From the NCBI GenBank assembly GCA_002708385.1, contig PANM01000038.1, positions 1 through 39,520 on the forward strand: DNA of 39,520 nt. Reading direction: 5' to 3'. The notes beneath the pieces are model-generated. The model searched no databases, was not told where the DNA came from, and saw nothing but the letters and a program-made list of their open reading frames with translations. Both the position numbers and the translations under genes were made by a program. Shown here one piece after another: positions 26 through 9,014 of this stretch (the first letter of the stretch is position 1; the number at the start of each line of letters is the position of its first letter). Source of the DNA: Methanobacteriota archaeon. GTDB lineage: Archaea > Thermoplasmatota > Poseidoniia > Poseidoniales > Thalassarchaeaceae.

Positions 26-3000
26 TCACTGTTCGTAAGGTTCCCAAGCACCCGTCAAGACGTTGTGCTTGAGTAGACTTCCATCTGGGTTCTGTACCCA
101 AACATCCCCATTGTCATCACGCCATACTTTCTGACCGTGTTCATTGATTTGTGCATCTGGAGGTGCTTCAATTTTCGGAACTGGTGGTGGAGTATCTGCG
201 AGAAGACTGTCAAGGTCTAATTCATCGACTACTTCAGTTGATTGTATATCAGATTGAGGTTCTGTGAATACTTCTTCATTGACCTCGGACTCTAGAGTTA
301 GATCTACACCAAATTGTTCAGAAGTCAGTGATTCATCCACTGATTCTGTAACTATCTGTTCTGCTGCTTGTAAGTCCAACATAGTAGCGGGGGAGGGTTC
401 TTCTGTTTCAGGTATAGGCTCACTTTCGACTTGGGCTTGGGTATTTTCAAAAAACATACGGTCTTCAGCCGATACTCTAACTTCTACTCCGCCTATCTGT
501 CGAAGCTCATGAGTGCTATCATCAGCCTCAGATTTCTTCTGGCGGCTACCAACACCCATTCGTACGCTAAATCCGATTACTCCAAGAATAATTAAACCGA
601 TAAACAGGTGAACTGCTGCTTGCCCATACGTTTGGTAAAACTTCAGCGTTGGGAAATCATCTGAATTGTCACCAGTTCCATCTCCGTCAGAATCCTGCCA
701 TTCATCGGGATTCTTGGGGAAGGCATCGGGGCCAGCGGTACAAACTCCAGTGACATTGTTAGGGCCATCACAGGTCCCATCTCCGTCGAAATCAGGGATA
801 AGTGGATCTAGTCCAATCTCAGTTTCCTGAAGGTCAGTAATTCCATCACCATCATCATCTTCATCTGTATTATCTCCAATTCCATCTCCATCTGAATCTA
901 GCCACTCTGTTCGATCTAAAGGAAGGTCATCAGTGACATCTGGGAAGCCATCGTTATCATCATCATCATCTTCTTGTGTATCTTCACAACCATCCTGATC
1001 CCAATCATTTCCTTCAACACTAATCCAATTCAACAGTCCATAATCGCATAAATCAGTATAGTCAAGTACCCCATCATTATCATCATCGTCATCCAAGAAA
1101 TTCGGTATATTGTCTCCATCATAATCCTCTCGACAATCTTCAACATTGTCCGAACCCTCGACCAATGTTATTGTTCCTTGAGGGCAAGGTAGTGGTTCTG
1201 TTGCACCTTCGACGTCTACATAGAAATTAATCTCCGCAGGTATCTGTGATTTCGCCCCAGTAGAATTTACGTAGTATCCTAGACTTGCGGGTTTACATTC
1301 AGTCTGTTTAATGATATTTTGGTAACTTCCAACATCACATTCAATTTGATTAGCCGACCCAGATTCAGGAACGTGATAACCTAATTCTGAATCTAAACAA
1401 GAGAGTTTACTATATGACCCAGAATCTGGATTGAATGTTCCTGGCTCACAAGCATTTTGAGTAGAGGAGGCTTGTGTATCAACGTAATGTCCAGGGTCTG
1501 CAATTAAACAAATTGAGCTACCTTCATTCGGCTGGTAATGACCAATGTCACAAGCTTCTTGTAAGCCTGAACCCTCATTTGCAACGAAATAACCTGGACT
1601 TGTATTCATACAATCGTTTGAGGAGGTGGAACCACTTGATGGAAGGAAAGTACCCGCCAAACAAGCAGTTTGAGATGAGGCAAAGTGAGAGTCGACATAG
1701 TAACCAGGTTCAGCTAGAACACAATCAGTGCCTCCTAGATTTTCCTGAAAGGAACCCATCGAACAGCCAATTTGTCCCGTAGCTCCTTCGCTAGGCACAT
1801 GATATCCAGAATCTGCATCTATGCAGCTAGATTGCCCTGGTGCTGGTTGATAGGTTCCTGCAGAACACAAAATTTGTTCTGATGAGCCCGAATTAGGGAC
1901 ATAGTTTCCTGGTTCTGCTGCAAGGCAGTCTGCAGAATTGATCGAACCACTATCTTGGTTGTACGTTCCAGCATTGCAGGCTGTTTGCATTGAAGCCGCT
2001 GGAATATCTACGTAATATCCGGGTGAAGAAGTATCACAACTTGTGGATCCGTAACTGTCTTGCCATGTTCCTACCGAACATGGTAATTGAGCATCCGCAC
2101 CCGGGGTTGGCACGTAATAACCTGGTGCGGCTGAGTCGCAAGCAATTTGCCCCTGATTTGCAGAATAATTACCTGGATTACATTCGATTTGTCCTATTGA
2201 CCCCTGTAAAGGAACAAAATGACCAAAATCTGCAAGTAAACAATCGGTAGCTTGAGTTGCAAGTGCAAATGGATTGTATGAACCAGCAGGGCATGCTAAC
2301 TGAGAAATTGACGCCGGAGTATCAACATAAAAGCCAGGTTCTGCCCCATTACAATCTGATTGACCAGGTAGTGGTTGATAATAACCTGGAACACATGGTT
2401 GTTGGTTTGCTGATCCGGGATCGCCTGTATAATATCCCGAGGAGGTTTGAAGACAACTAATCTGACCACTTGATGGTTGATACTCTCCTGGTGAACATGC
2501 AGTCTGTGAAATTGAAGCATTTGTAGCTACAAAATGTCCTGGCTCAGCGTCCGTACAGGACAATTGTCCACCGTAGGGCTGGAAGGTTCCTAGATGACAT
2601 TGCGTTTGATTCGTTGCACCCTGAATTGGAACATAATGTCCGGCATCAGCTTCCAAACAAACTCTCTGACCTGAAGCAGGCTGATAGGTCCCTACGTTAC
2701 AGATTGTTTGATTCGCCTGGCCAGTAGCTGGAACGTAATACCCAGGACTTGCCGCAAAACATGTAGTTTGAGCTGATGATGGTTGATAAGTTCCTATAGA
2801 ACAGGATGTTTGTGCTGATGATCCTGTTGAATTGACAAAATGCCCTACACCAGCAGCAATTTGATTTGCAGAGCCTGCTTGAGCTACGTAGTAACCTAGA
2901 GCGGAAATTGTGCAATCAGTTTGCCCAGGATAAGTTTGGTAGTAACCTGCAGGACATTGGTTCTGAGAAGTCGCTCCGGAACCGTATACATAATGACCTG

Positions 3001-5116
3001 GAGAGGCCTGATTACAGGAAGAGGAGGCGTCCTGATCTTGCCAGGAACCTGGTGAACAGAGTGTCGAATAAAGAGCCTGCTCGGCGTTTACATGGATCGA
3101 GGTGGATCCTATTGTTACTGCGTTTTCGCCTGTAGATTTTACTTCAATAACTAGATTGTAGTCGTCTGAACCGTTGAAACCTGAGGTGAATGTTACTCGA
3201 ATAAAGTATATCCCTGTAGAATTATTTGCTGAAATTGTCGAGACCTCATCATGAGTATTACTGGTATTGGAAAAATCAATCACATCGAATGATGAATTTA
3301 ACAATTCGATATCGAAGTTTTTTCCAGCCGGAGACGTTAGATTTGCTATGAACCAGGTATTCCTTGATAGATTCAGGAAGAATACGTCGGTGTTGTCTGA
3401 ACTACCTTCGAAAGAACCCGTGTAGTTTGCACTCATTAGAGACAAAGGTACTGCTGTACTGTTTGTAGAACCCGCATCACCCATATCTAGGCTAACAAAG
3501 GAACCTGGGGCAGAGACAATACATGATGATTGACCAATTTCCATGTTGTAATATCCGGTTTCACAAGGGGTTTGTGAAATTGAGGCAGATAAATCAACGT
3601 AATGACCGGCGGATGCGTCCAAACAATCAGATTGACCACTGAACGGTTGAAATGTGCCAGGGTCACAGGAATATTGTATCAAGCCACCTGATGCGTAATG
3701 CCCCTCTTCTGCATCTAAACATGATAGTCTTCCATATTGACCTTCGTCACAATCTAACCATCTGACAGGGTTATTTGGATAATTTTCGTCTGAATCTATA
3801 ACTCCATCGCCATCAAGATCCCCAGTTTGGTGAGTATCGAAAATATTACGAATTCCATCGCCATCAAAGTCTTGATCTGAATATGCAACTTGCCCCCCAT
3901 CATTGAATGTCAATTCAAACGGAATGAGTTTTGAGTCTGTAGTATTGTCAAACTCTCCAGATTGGGCTCCCCAACATTTCAATGAATAGTCCGACAAAAT
4001 TGCACAAGTGGAATAATATCCCGCAGCTGCTGATATTACTGTCAAACCTGGCCCTAGATTTACATTAGCAATAGGATCACCCTCAGCTGGGAAGATATTT
4101 TCGGAATTACAATTTGGATTGGTTGTTGAGGCGCAGGTTCCGTCTCCTAATTGTCCGTTTGAATTTATACCCCAACATTGCATAGAACCATTGTTGGTAA
4201 CCACACATGCGTGACTACCAATACCATCCAGCATAATAGCAGTGGCATTATCTCCCAAGTCTATGAGATACAAGTTTGAAGATACTGGCCCATTATCGGA
4301 AAATACAGTGAATTTGCTACCCCAACAACCAACTGAACCATTTTCAAAAATTACGCAGGTTGATCTCGCCGAGGTGATTATTGATACGGCCCGAAGACCT
4401 GTGGAATGATTCGATAAGATTGGAATGAGGGAATCATTTGTTGTGCCATCCCCGAGTTGCCCTCTAATATTTAGCCCCCAACACATAACATCGCCGTTAT
4501 GGGTAATCACACAGGTATAATCATCTCCTGCCGAAACTGCAACCGCGTCAACTCCAATGCCAAGATTTATCTCGACTGGAGCAGCCCTGTTCGTAGTGGT
4601 ATTATCTCCAATTTGGCCATGGTGGTTACGACCCCAACACCATAGACTTGCGTCAATTAAAATTGCACATGTATGTTCTTTACCCGAATCGACTAATACA
4701 GGGTGCTGATTAAAATTAACGTAACCTTCCGTTAAGTCATTATTTGCCAGACCTAATTGACCATAACCATTCGAACCCGAACAATACATTGAGTAATTGA
4801 ATAAAATTGAGCATCTACCTGAAGTTGAAATCAACGAACCCTCAGTGTAGATTGGATTTCCTTCTGACCATTTGACTGAAGTTCCATTATTGAGAATAAC
4901 CAATGGGCCGCTATTTGTCACATCCAATACTGAATTTGAGAAAATTGTACTAGATTCTGAACCATTGATATTAATTGATGAAGTATCGTTAGTCGTGAAT
5001 GATTGAACCCTAGGTTCGCCCAGTTCTAAATTTTCCTTATCCGGATCAGAAAGAAAACCCAATATTGGTACGGCGAGAAATAAAAGGCAAATCCCTAGAG
5101 CAACGATTCTCTTCAT
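26..5116 (-). CDS. Giant secreted/membrane-anchored surface protein: RCC1-like repeats, ephrin-receptor-like (GCC2/GCC3) Cys-rich repeats, PPC-like domain, thrombospondin-type-3-like Asp repeats, C-terminal TM and cytoplasmic tail
   Basis: ORF 26..5191; ATG at 5116 (MKRIVALGICLLFLAVPILGF) gives a signal peptide. Repeats TCAILIDASLWCWGRNHHGQIGD; many CxxGxYQPxxGQxxCxxAxPGYYV units; DxDGDGxxD repeats; TM VHLFIGLIILGVIGFSV. Confidence 0.9.
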   Translation of the reverse strand: MKRIVALGICLLFLAVPILGFLSDPDKENLELGEPRVQSFTTNDTSSININGSESSTIFSNSVLDVTNSGPLVILNNGTSVKWSEGNPIYTEGSLISTSGRCSILFNYSMYCSGSNGYGQLGLANNDLTEGYVNFNQHPVLVDSGKEHTCAILIDASLWCWGRNHHGQIGDNTTTNRAAPVEINLGIGVDAVAVSAGDDYTCVITHNGDVMCWGLNIRGQLGDGTTNDSLIPILSNHSTGLRAVSIITSARSTCVIFENGSVGCWGSKFTVFSDNGPVSSNLYLIDLGDNATAIMLDGIGSHACVVTNNGSMQCWGINSNGQLGDGTCASTTNPNCNSENIFPAEGDPIANVNLGPGLTVISAAAGYYSTCAILSDYSLKCWGAQSGEFDNTTDSKLIPFELTFNDGGQVAYSDQDFDGDGIRNIFDTHQTGDLDGDGVIDSDENYPNNPVRWLDCDEGQYGRLSCLDAEEGHYASGGLIQYSCDPGTFQPFSGQSDCLDASAGHYVDLSASISQTPCETGYYNMEIGQSSCIVSAPGSFVSLDMGDAGSTNSTAVPLSLMSANYTGSFEGSSDNTDVFFLNLSRNTWFIANLTSPAGKNFDIELLNSSFDVIDFSNTSNTHDEVSTISANNSTGIYFIRVTFTSGFNGSDDYNLVIEVKSTGENAVTIGSTSIHVNAEQALYSTLCSPGSWQDQDASSSCNQASPGHYVYGSGATSQNQCPAGYYQTYPGQTDCTISALGYYVAQAGSANQIAAGVGHFVNSTGSSAQTSCSIGTYQPSSAQTTCFAASPGYYVPATGQANQTICNVGTYQPASGQRVCLEADAGHYVPIQGATNQTQCHLGTFQPYGGQLSCTDAEPGHFVATNASISQTACSPGEYQPSSGQISCLQTSSGYYTGDPGSANQQPCVPGYYQPLPGQSDCNGAEPGFYVDTPASISQLACPAGSYNPFALATQATDCLLADFGHFVPLQGSIGQIECNPGNYSANQGQIACDSAAPGYYVPTPGADAQLPCSVGTWQDSYGSTSCDTSSPGYYVDIPAASMQTACNAGTYNQDSGSINSADCLAAEPGNYVPNSGSSEQILCSAGTYQPAPGQSSCIDADSGYHVPSEGATGQIGCSMGSFQENLGGTDCVLAEPGYYVDSHFASSQTACLAGTFLPSSGSTSSNDCMNTSPGYFVANEGSGLQEACDIGHYQPNEGSSICLIADPGHYVDTQASSTQNACEPGTFNPDSGSYSKLSCLDSELGYHVPESGSANQIECDVGSYQNIIKQTECKPASLGYYVNSTGAKSQIPAEINFYVDVEGATEPLPCPQGTITLVEGSDNVEDCREDYDGDNIPNFLDDDDDNDGVLDYTDLCDYGLLNWISVEGNDWDQDGCEDTQEDDDDDNDGFPDVTDDLPLDRTEWLDSDGDGIGDNTDEDDDGDGITDLQETEIGLDPLIPDFDGDGTCDGPNNVTGVCTAGPDAFPKNPDEWQDSDGDGTGDNSDDFPTLKFYQTYGQAAVHLFIGLIILGVIGFSVRMGVGSRQKKSEADDSTHELRQIGGVEVRVSAEDRMFFENTQAQVESEPIPETEEPSPATMLDLQAAEQIVTESVDESLTSEQFGVDLTLESEVNEEVFTEPQSDIQSTEVVDELDLDSLLADTPPPVPKIEAPPDAQINEHGQKVWRDDNGDVWVQNPDGSLLKHNVLTGAWEPYEQ
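1133..3067 (-). repeat. Coding tandem repeat block: about 24-25-aa half-repeats of GCC2/GCC3 / ephrin-receptor-like Cys-rich type
   Basis: Recurrent C-x-x-G-[TY]-[YFW]-[QN]-P-x-x-G-Q-x-x-C-x-x-A-x-P-G-Y-Y-V-x(8)-Q pattern in the translated 26..5116 CDS; boundaries approximate. Confidence 0.8.
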
Positions 5117-5187
5117 TTCAGCATTCTCCATATGGCTTGGCGCACTTACAGAGATTATGACTATTACCTTTAACTGAACAAGTTGCA

Positions 5188-6969
5188 TCATACCTTAAGC
5201 ACCTTTAATGCTAGTCCGTAAGACTGTACTCCCACCTCCGTTAATACCTCCTCTACGTCTGAAAAGGCAGGTTCAAGGGAATTTCTAGAGGCCTTTGCCC
5301 GATTTGAAACTATACGCCAGGCTGCTTTGCTACCGATTCCAGGAATTGCTTCAAGCTGAGATTGAGTCGCGGTGTTAATCGATAATCTAGATTCAACTCC
5401 ACTTATGCTTCTCATTCCATGCCCAGTTACTATGATGTCAGATTTTGTTTCTAGGGGAATTTGATATGGCGTACCTACCAATATTGGATAGGCACCAATC
5501 TGTCTCCCAAAAGTAATTCCAGAACTGCCATAAATCGAAACATCTCTGTGAATTTTTTGCAACACTTGTTCAGGTCTTCTGATTCGATCATCATGAGCTT
5601 CCCACCAAACTCCTTTGAGTTCAGTACCAATTGGAAACATTTCTTTTAGAAGTGGTTTATCGATTTCCTCTCGCACTCTTTTCTTGAATTCTTGAAATAT
5701 ATCTTGAGGGATTTCTTGGAAGCCCAATCCTTCGACCTGTCTAATGTTGATTCGTCGCAGCCATAGACCCTCTGATCTGAGGCTATCAAGTAATTGCATA
5801 TTGATTCCATAGGACCTCTTTGTTTCCCCGTTTAGGCCAGCGATGAAATTGAGTCCCGGCAATAATTTCGGCAGCCCTCGTTGTCCCGATTCTCTTCCAA
5901 ATTCATTGATATGGCGAATAGCAACCTTGAGCTGTTCCGTATTGCAATTTAGCCAATTTTCATGATGAACTAGGGGGTCAGCCGATTCGAGCCCAAATGA
6001 GAGTACTGCTCCATCAGATAAAGTAGAAATCAGAGTTCTAGTTATTTCAGATGCGGGTTCTAAATTCTCGGCAATAATAGAAGGATTGGCATTATCGACA
6101 TGCAGTATATCCAATCTTTCATCTTCTCTTAATCCATGTAACACTTGGGCAATCGGTTCTGGGTCAGGGATAGGATATTCTAATTCTACAACACCTTCGG
6201 CTTTGTAGGTATAGATATCAGTAGCGCCTCCTATTCTAACATGATTTACTCCATTATCCAGAGCCGTGGTGATTTCAGTAATTACTTCATTTTCGTCCCT
6301 AAAAATTGGAACTCCTTTCTTTGGCTCAATACAGAATTTGCAACCCCTTTTGTACCTCACACAGCCTTGATACAGTTCAACCTCATAGGTTAGAGGACCA
6401 GGACGACCATCTTCGGTGATTAAATCTGGATGACTTGTGACGCATTTCCCTTCAGCACCTGCTTTCGCCCAAGTATTCCACTGGTCAGCTGTTCTTCGCT
6501 TGTGGGACCACTCCCCTGTGCTTAGGAAATAGGCCAAGGTGGCATCTGTATCCTGAACTGCACAAAATAATTCAGTTCGCAGAGGCATCCAGCCATCATA
6601 GCGCCAATGACGAATTGCCCAGCCACCTGTGAGAACTGGTTGTTCCCTTGGGAATATCGAAAGGAATTCGTCTAATTCTCTACGTGAAATAGGAGTTCCG
6701 CGAACGTACTTACCAGGCACTATTGCACCTGCTAAAACTACTGCACCGTCAAGTTCGGAAAGTTGTTTTTTCAGTATTTCTCTATCCGATGAATTTGACA
6801 GCTTTTTTTTATGTTGCAGCCTCCAGTCATCAATTGTCATATATGTGTATTCTAACCCTCTGGATTCAAGCACTCCACAGATATATCTGACGTGGAATCC
6901 AAGATAATTTGGCACCCCAAAAGCAGCGGGTTCATCCTCATATCCATCAAGGACCAACCAGCCTTCCAT
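5188..6969 (-). CDS. Radical SAM protein with C-terminal helix-hairpin-helix (COG1031-like)
   Basis: YQGCVRYKRGCKFCIEPKKG cluster motif; C-terminal INTATQSQLEAIPGIGSKAAWRIVSNRAKA (HhH). Confidence 0.85.
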   Translation of the reverse strand: MEGWLVLDGYEDEPAAFGVPNYLGFHVRYICGVLESRGLEYTYMTIDDWRLQHKKKLSNSSDREILKKQLSELDGAVVLAGAIVPGKYVRGTPISRRELDEFLSIFPREQPVLTGGWAIRHWRYDGWMPLRTELFCAVQDTDATLAYFLSTGEWSHKRRTADQWNTWAKAGAEGKCVTSHPDLITEDGRPGPLTYEVELYQGCVRYKRGCKFCIEPKKGVPIFRDENEVITEITTALDNGVNHVRIGGATDIYTYKAEGVVELEYPIPDPEPIAQVLHGLREDERLDILHVDNANPSIIAENLEPASEITRTLISTLSDGAVLSFGLESADPLVHHENWLNCNTEQLKVAIRHINEFGRESGQRGLPKLLPGLNFIAGLNGETKRSYGINMQLLDSLRSEGLWLRRINIRQVEGLGFQEIPQDIFQEFKKRVREEIDKPLLKEMFPIGTELKGVWWEAHDDRIRRPEQVLQKIHRDVSIYGSSGITFGRQIGAYPILVGTPYQIPLETKSDIIVTGHGMRSISGVESRLSINTATQSQLEAIPGIGSKAAWRIVSNRAKASRNSLEPAFSDVEEVLTEVGVQSYGLALKVLKV

Positions 6970-7049: not shown

Positions 7050-8324
7050 CTATCGACGATTGCGATTGCGATTTCGATTTCCTTTTCCACGGCCTCTACC
7101 GCCGCCATCATTAGATTCTTGAACACTAATTTTTCTTCCACGAATTTCGGTACCATCGAGTTCCTTAATCGCCTTTTCACCGGCTATTCGGCTAGCAAAT
7201 TTCACGAAAGCAAATCCTCGAGATTTTCCTGTATCTCTGTCCTTTGCAATGCTGCATTCTGTTATTTCCCCGTGTGTTGAAAATAGATTCTTGAGGTCTT
7301 CTTCACTCGCCTCAAAGGAAAGCCTTGCGACAAAGAGTTTGATTCCCGCTGCCTCTGCTGCCTGTGAACGAGCTTTGGTAAGAACTTCTCTTTCTGCTGC
7401 GAGTTCTTCCTTTGTTGCCTTTCCGTCATTCACCTTATCCATGCAATCCTTGCATCGGACTGGCTTACCTGGTGTGGGCTCAAATGGAACTGTAGTATCG
7501 GTTCCACAAAGTGTACACTTGCACTCATGCTTGATGCGTTGACGGCCACCTGAGCCTCCTTTTCCGGTAATTGCAGAACGAATCCTCACTGCTGCGGGTG
7601 GAGCCTTGTGATTAGGCCCACGACGATGGTCAGCCATGGGGGAAAGATACGGTCTAGCTCCTTCATGACCAAGATTGCCCTCAGCTTCCGGAGACCATCT
7701 TTCCCCTGCCCTATTCAATTCCTGTATATCCTTACCAAGAGTATGACCGTGGCCAAAACCATTTGATAATGCCCTGTATCCAGAATAATCGCATCTATTA
7801 CATACCACATTGAAGTCTTGGTTCTTGTCAGATGTTGTCAATTCATTCCCACATGCTGGACAAATTGCCCATAAGACTCCTAATTCAGGAGAGCCTCGTG
7901 TACTCGCTTTCAGGTTAGGTTCCAATTGTGTTATTCTAGCGCGAATCAAATCCCTAGTTCGCATTGCATCCCCTGGTGAAGGTAGGAATCTATCGACAAT
8001 TTCAGTTACGAAGATATCCGCGAATAAATTGTCAGCAATCAAATCTCTGTGTCCACCTTCTTTTTCGGTGTGTAGAATACGAATCATTACCACTTTAGGC
8101 ATTAATTTGACAACTTCCGCAATAACCTCATCTCCGATTTCTGGAGAATTCGTATTGGGACGATTCGATTTAATCGAGATTATCTCTCCATCCGAAATTA
8201 TCGTCCCACTGACCAATGCAATTGCACCAACATCAGACTCTGAAAGTCCGGGACCAATAGCGGTGCCTGATGGCACTTCTACTTGATTTCCTGGTGTGAC
8301 AAAGTCCCCAGTTGCAGCACTCAT
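7050..8324 (-). CDS. Exosome RNA-binding subunit Csl4 fused to a second CxxC zinc ribbon, an RRM domain and an Arg/Gly/Asn-rich tail
   Basis: N-term Csl4-like (GDEVIAEVVKL..., LGVLWAICPACGNELT...CNRCDYSGYRALSNGFG); CKCTLCGTDTTVPFEPTPGKPVRCKDC; RRM RNP2 LFVARL and RNP1 KSRGFAFVKF; tail GGGRGRGKGNRNRNRNRR. Confidence 0.88.
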   Translation of the reverse strand: MSAATGDFVTPGNQVEVPSGTAIGPGLSESDVGAIALVSGTIISDGEIISIKSNRPNTNSPEIGDEVIAEVVKLMPKVVMIRILHTEKEGGHRDLIADNLFADIFVTEIVDRFLPSPGDAMRTRDLIRARITQLEPNLKASTRGSPELGVLWAICPACGNELTTSDKNQDFNVVCNRCDYSGYRALSNGFGHGHTLGKDIQELNRAGERWSPEAEGNLGHEGARPYLSPMADHRRGPNHKAPPAAVRIRSAITGKGGSGGRQRIKHECKCTLCGTDTTVPFEPTPGKPVRCKDCMDKVNDGKATKEELAAEREVLTKARSQAAEAAGIKLFVARLSFEASEEDLKNLFSTHGEITECSIAKDRDTGKSRGFAFVKFASRIAGEKAIKELDGTEIRGRKISVQESNDGGGRGRGKGNRNRNRNRR

Positions 8325-8399: not shown

Positions 8400-9014
8400 T
8401 TACTCAGGGGGCTTTAATCTCCAAAATGCAACCTTTGTTTTTCCTCGACTACTTGAGTGGTGAGTATAGACAGCTGGGAGAGGAAATTCAGTTTCCCAAT
8501 ATCGGTTAACTGTCCATCCTTTCGATTCGAAATAGGGTTCAACATGAGTTGCTTTAGCGCTGTGCATAAGGTGACAAATGGAATTAGAACGAATGATCAC
8601 ATCAAAAAAAGTGCGATCTGATTTAGCGACTTGAGTACCCCAAGGCGGGTTAGAAATTATCAAATCTACGCCGGATAAATCTAAGTTTTCATCGACATTT
8701 TGCATCATAAGCTCGACATTTTCTGAAACACCCACCTGTTCAATCGATTGGAAGGCGCTATTGCAGGCATCTTCATCCAATTCAATCAATAGCACTTGTT
8801 CTATTCCCATCAGAGCAGCACCTATTCCCAGAACCCCGTTTCCAGCACCTAGGTCTACAATTTTTGAATCAGAAGTCATATCACCAAATGTTGCTATTTG
8901 GCTTAACCAAGATGCTGCTATATCTCCCGGTGTAGAATATTGTTCTAACTCAAGCCTTCCACAGGGATGAGGAGGTAGAGAGGAGAGAAGCATGGCTAGT
9001 TGCCGTTGTCGCAC
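8400..9014 (-). CDS. METTL5-like / COG2263 rRNA N6-adenine methyltransferase
   Basis: LEQYSTPGDIAASWL, VDLGAGNGVLGIGA SAM motif, catalytic NPPWGTQ. Confidence 0.85.
   Translation of the reverse strand: MRQRQLAMLLSSLPPHPCGRLELEQYSTPGDIAASWLSQIATFGDMTSDSKIVDLGAGNGVLGIGAALMGIEQVLLIELDEDACNSAFQSIEQVGVSENVELMMQNVDENLDLSGVDLIISNPPWGTQVAKSDRTFFDVIIRSNSICHLMHSAKATHVEPYFESKGWTVNRYWETEFPLPAVYTHHSSSRGKTKVAFWRLKPPE

Follow-up and report, generated by a model that had tools for sequence, protein, structure and literature searches.

Knowledge of archaeal RNA decay comes from a small number of models, and the basis of substrate choice by the exosome is an open question. Among the closest described systems is Csl4 of the A. 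fulgidus exosome (PDB 2BA1), the chain of which stops after the zinc ribbon, at 179 aa. In Sulfolobus, DnaG docks on Csl4 and binds RNA, and an engineered protein, Csl4-NT, in which the N-terminal RNA-binding domain of DnaG is placed on the Csl4 C-terminus, binds poly(A) and leads to faster degradation of A-rich RNA (PMC4227792); among the systems found, it is only with this engineered fusion that an effect of an integral RNA-recognition arm on the exosome had previously been shown. In humans, RNAs are brought to the exosome by an RRM protein of the NEXT complex, which is formed by RBM7 (RRM), ZCCHC8 (zinc knuckle) and MTR4 (PMC5146272). The RRM family of the protein described here is also that of the small stand-alone Rbp proteins (NF058537), which are not fused to an exosome subunit.

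The window, i.e. the whole stretch of DNA that was analysed (39,520 nucleotides, contig PANM01000038.1, from a member of the Thalassarchaeaceae, order Poseidoniales, the ocean archaea of Marine Group II), had been read in a first-pass annotation as encoding, in one uninterrupted ORF, an exosome Csl4 fused to a second zinc ribbon, an RRM and an RGG/RN-like tail. The analysis confirmed that the ORF at 7050-8324 contains a complete archaeal Csl4 followed by a conserved linker, a zinc finger, a canonical RRM and a basic tail:

7050-8324, minus strand: csl4-RRM fusion gene, 424 aa, one ORF with an ATG start and no internal stop
7755-8306, minus strand: complete archaeal Csl4 (N-terminal anchor domain, S1 domain and C-terminal zinc ribbon), residues 7-190
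7782-7871, minus strand: Csl4 zinc ribbon, residues 152-181, with Cys155, Cys158, Cys175 and Cys178
7539-7754, minus strand: order-specific linker, residues 191-262, with a conserved motif in approximately the first 50 residues and then a Gly/Arg-rich spacer
7434-7535, minus strand: CxxC-x17-CxxC treble-clef zinc finger, residues 264-297, above the cut-offs of TIGR04272 and PF23477
7347-7418, minus strand: long helix between finger and RRM, residues 303-326 (helix 305-326 in the AlphaFold2 model)
7110-7343, minus strand: canonical RRM, residues 328-405, with the RNP aromatics F331, F371 and F373
7053-7109, minus strand: basic disordered tail, residues 406-424, terminus GRGRGKGNRNRNRNRR, pLDDT about 37

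All three Csl4 parts of 2BA1, including the ribbon cysteines, are common to residues 7-190, to which the window protein adds about 230 residues with the finger and the RRM. As in Csl4-NT, the added RNA-binding domain stands on the Csl4 C-terminus; however, Csl4-NT is man-made and carries another RNA-binding domain, whereas the present fusion is natural, order-wide and built with an RRM. As in NEXT, RRM and zinc-binding modules are proposed to direct RNA to the exosome, but NEXT consists of separate recruited proteins with no shared architecture, whereas here the modules are part of the cap subunit, without a helicase. The open-access papers searched contain no description of a Csl4-RRM fusion. 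In the fused architecture, an RRM is hard-wired into the exosome cap subunit of a widespread marine order, in two family-specific versions. The preferred reading, with a probability of roughly 0.7, is that the protein is a Csl4 cap subunit with an RRM arm that captures single-stranded RNA for the exosome, raising affinity and biasing the choice of substrates.

Domain organization of the Csl4-RRM protein

The assignment of the N-terminal part (residues 1-190) to Csl4, zinc ribbon included, was clearly borne out by both profile and fold comparisons. The NCBIfam model of archaeal Csl4, NF034126, aligns with residues 7-190 over positions 1-178 of its 180 (E 4e-23), with a score of 82 bits that is just below the curated cut-off of 90, while orthologues of both families of the order score 105-118 bits. 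A profile of the N-terminal part matches A. fulgidus Csl4 (2BA1) with E 1.9e-37, and the same structure (2BA1_A) was the top Foldseek match in the PDB over the Csl4 part of the AlphaFold2 model (probability 1.00, E 1.4e-14, TMt 0.74). The mean pLDDT of the model of the 424-aa protein is 76, with a pTM of 0.44, so that the relative placement of cap and arm is not fixed by it.

The second zinc module (residues 263-297) scores 41 bits with TIGR04272 (cut-off 36) and 39.6 bits with Pfam zf_Tbcl_2 (PF23477; cut-off 27). The RRM is recognized by RRM_1 (PF00076) at residues 330-399 (E 4e-21, 75 bits against a cut-off of 20.7), with the RNP2 (LFVARL) and RNP1 (KSRGFAFVKF) motifs as originally described, and this part of the model matches many RRM structures (TMt about 0.9, rmsd near 1 Å). 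Linker residues 191-262 are mostly coil of low confidence in the model.

Conservation across the order

A match to the window protein was found in 189 of 195 genomes and in all 21 genera of the order, with the fusion present in close and distant relatives alike; the gene is missing or broken in a small number of genomes, in several cases at contig ends. The same single ORF recurs in many independent assemblies, which refutes the joining of two genes by an assembly or annotation artefact, for which nothing was found in favour and the probability of which is practically nil. All 74 same-family orthologues that could be read through to the stop codon retain the cysteines of the Csl4 ribbon, the second finger and RNP1. 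In an alignment of 24 proteins from both families of the order, C155, C158, C175 and C178 of the Csl4 ribbon are invariant, and finger residues C270, C273, C291 and C294 are kept in the window's family only, being absent from the sister family. All folded modules show purifying selection. For Csl4, ribbon, linker and RRM, dN/dS is 0.08-0.18 with respect to the nearest relative and, in comparisons without saturation of synonymous sites, 0.03-0.12 with respect to more distant relatives. The short regions make individual values noisy, and for the folded modules a range of about 0.03-0.18 holds in most measurable comparisons. Spacer and tail are under looser constraint than the folded modules.

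The first part of the linker (7599-7754, minus strand; residues 191-242) contains the order-specific motif LNRxGxRWS..AE..LGH.G.RPYLSP.ADHRRG, highly conserved and without a confident predicted fold; its N204, R209 and W210 do not vary in either family and are missing from the Csl4 of the sister order. RRMs may also serve as protein-binding modules. The arm might be mainly a protein-docking device, in which linker, finger and RRM would recruit the exosome to a partner such as DnaG, a helicase, RNA polymerase or the ribosome, and RNA binding would be secondary. That the linker motif is conserved as strongly as the domains, yet has no confident fold, is what is expected of a binding motif, and the RRM of RBM7 in human NEXT does bind a proline-rich segment of ZCCHC8 (PMC5146272). 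However, the three RNA-contacting positions (F331, F371 and F373) are aromatic in all 24 aligned proteins of both families, which a purely protein-binding RRM need not retain, and a mainly protein-docking role is regarded as unlikely. Conservation of these residues points instead to an RRM that binds RNA, as in the preferred reading of an RNA-capturing arm.

Origin of the fusion and its two versions

The survey for Csl4 and RRM covered the phylum Thermoplasmatota and four archaeal controls, and agreed with the initial remark that RRMs are uncommon in archaea: RRM_1 was absent from the four control genomes, and of the 182 genomes of the phylum that lie outside the order 24 have it, in each case in an ORF of 81-158 aa. 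Csl4 is unfused in the rest of the phylum. Within the order nearly all RRMs are inside the Csl4 ORF, with the exceptions of genome G066 and of fragments in G029. The sister order of the same class has a stand-alone csl4 (open frame of 185-214 aa) and a single RRM gene (about 85-105 aa) located elsewhere in the genome. The fusion itself exists in two versions. In the window's family Csl4 is followed by finger and RRM, and in the sister family, presumably the Poseidoniaceae, by a homologous linker and two RRMs, again in one frame. The second zinc ribbon of the first-pass annotation is thus real in the window protein but lineage-specific, an RRM standing in its place in the sister family.

In the RRM tree all Csl4-fused RRMs form one clade (support 97/96), in which the window-family RRM groups with the first RRM of the sister family (87/87), bearing in mind that the tree was built on few columns and that its deep forks are uncertain. 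Because the fused RRMs form one clade and the folded modules are under purifying selection, the fusion most likely arose once, in the ancestor of Poseidoniales, from a formerly stand-alone RRM protein; on the simplest reading, a finger would then have been gained in one family and a second RRM in the other.

Of the long Csl4 frames found elsewhere in the phylum, which reach 511 aa, six were inspected and none proved to be a further fusion: they have no RRM, most of the excess lies upstream of Csl4 within the open frame and no C-terminal extension is longer than 54 aa. In the sister order, cysteines of the Csl4 zinc ribbon have been lost in genus g23 (loci L182, L183 and L184; e.g. CNVTHDVL...SEEL) and are retained in genus g22 (L181), where they are all in place.

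The exosome complement and DnaG

Rrp4, Rrp41 and Rrp42 genes were identified in the genome to which the window belongs, on contig C16, in one run or operon together with SBDS, proteasome-alpha-like and L37Ae-like genes, the last two labels being assigned by eye from the sequence; the Rrp4, Rrp41 and Rrp42 scores are below the curated cut-offs, yet each of these families is the best for its gene. A second Csl4 was not found in this genome.

The latter result bears on the proposal that the protein is a partly off-exosome mRNA-binding regulator, like bacterial and cyanobacterial Rbp, with the fusion merely coupling its abundance to that of the exosome. The stand-alone RRM of the sister order does pass the cut-off of the 'RNA-binding regulator' equivalog, 100 bits, with a score of 116 bits, and one sister-family fusion passes it with 140 bits. 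However, no separate Csl4 is left to serve the exosome, and Csl4 and RRM as two intact genes were seen in no genome of the order, which makes such a role quite improbable.

No DnaG was detected in the genome to which the window belongs, the completeness of which is 75%; this would favour an RRM that has taken the place of DnaG in binding RNA for the exosome. DnaG does occur, however, in almost every other genome of the order that was sampled, and its three parts (N-terminal, TOPRIM and C-terminal) show parallel divergence, with no special loss of the exosome-binding C-terminal domain. The replacement of DnaG is thus largely refuted, and very improbable; since DnaG is retained across the order, the RRM is seen as an addition to it.

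The same genome also encodes a bacterial-type RNase PH besides Rrp41 and Rrp42 (locus L186, 710-1537, minus strand, contig C45; TIGR01966, 246 bits versus a cut-off of 141.5). Most of the genomes of the order that were sampled also gave a match to a third RNase PH homologue of this kind, which is unexpected beside a phosphorolytic exosome.

Proposed function of the RRM arm

By orthology, the fusion protein is expected to sit in the exosome, anchored on the hexameric Rrp41/Rrp42 ring by its N-terminal domain and forming the normal cap with its S1 domain and zinc ribbon. The linker would bear the finger and the RRM, or the two RRMs of the sister family, as an RNA-gripping arm over the pore, with the RRM holding single-stranded RNA through its RNP aromatics. 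RNA held near the pore may in turn give a higher affinity for substrates and a bias in which RNAs enter the core. Capture of RNA by the arm is considered the most likely role, as with the engineered fusion of Csl4 with the DnaG N-terminal domain in vitro. The retained DnaG speaks against such an arm, as it already provides RNA binding on Csl4 and leaves the need for a second arm unexplained.

Selection of substrates by the arm, with a sequence preference, may follow. It is more tentatively suggested, as a possibility that we consider somewhat doubtful, that the Poseidoniales exosome is sequence-selective by way of an integral RRM arm, either doubled or paired with a finger, without a separate adaptor complex and in convergence with eukaryotic RRM-containing adaptors such as NEXT. 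The fusion protein, being compact and expressible, offers a means to test if an integral RNA-recognition arm alters exosome specificity.

The C-terminal tail and the neighbouring genes

The RGG/RN-like tail is present in the window protein but variable among orthologues: of 71 tails from the same family, 32 contain RGG, the RN repeat is particular to close relatives and the sister-family tails are mostly of a different charged type (KSSRE...KKD). Conserved RGG repeats, taken as the mark of a condensate-forming tail, were not found across the 71 same-family tails and the sister family, and the condensate-like interactions initially suggested for the tail thus find little support. A Csl4 of another family in the phylum (locus L196, 1238-2317, minus strand), which has no RRM, carries at its end 54 residues rich in Arg and Gly that seem to form an independent basic tail.

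Two genes flank csl4-RRM in the window:

8400-9014, minus strand: methyltransferase gene, upstream of csl4, conserved in this place in both families and also next to the stand-alone csl4 of the sister order
5188-6969, minus strand: radical-SAM-like gene, downstream, a neighbour conserved within the order

What looks like a giant surface protein, of 1721 aa, is also encoded in the window, at 26-5191 (minus strand). Its N-terminal repeats are RCC1-like, and it has long arrays of repeats that contain cysteine (PGYYVP...C..GTYQP..GQ..C), an apparent transmembrane segment and a tail at the C-terminus.
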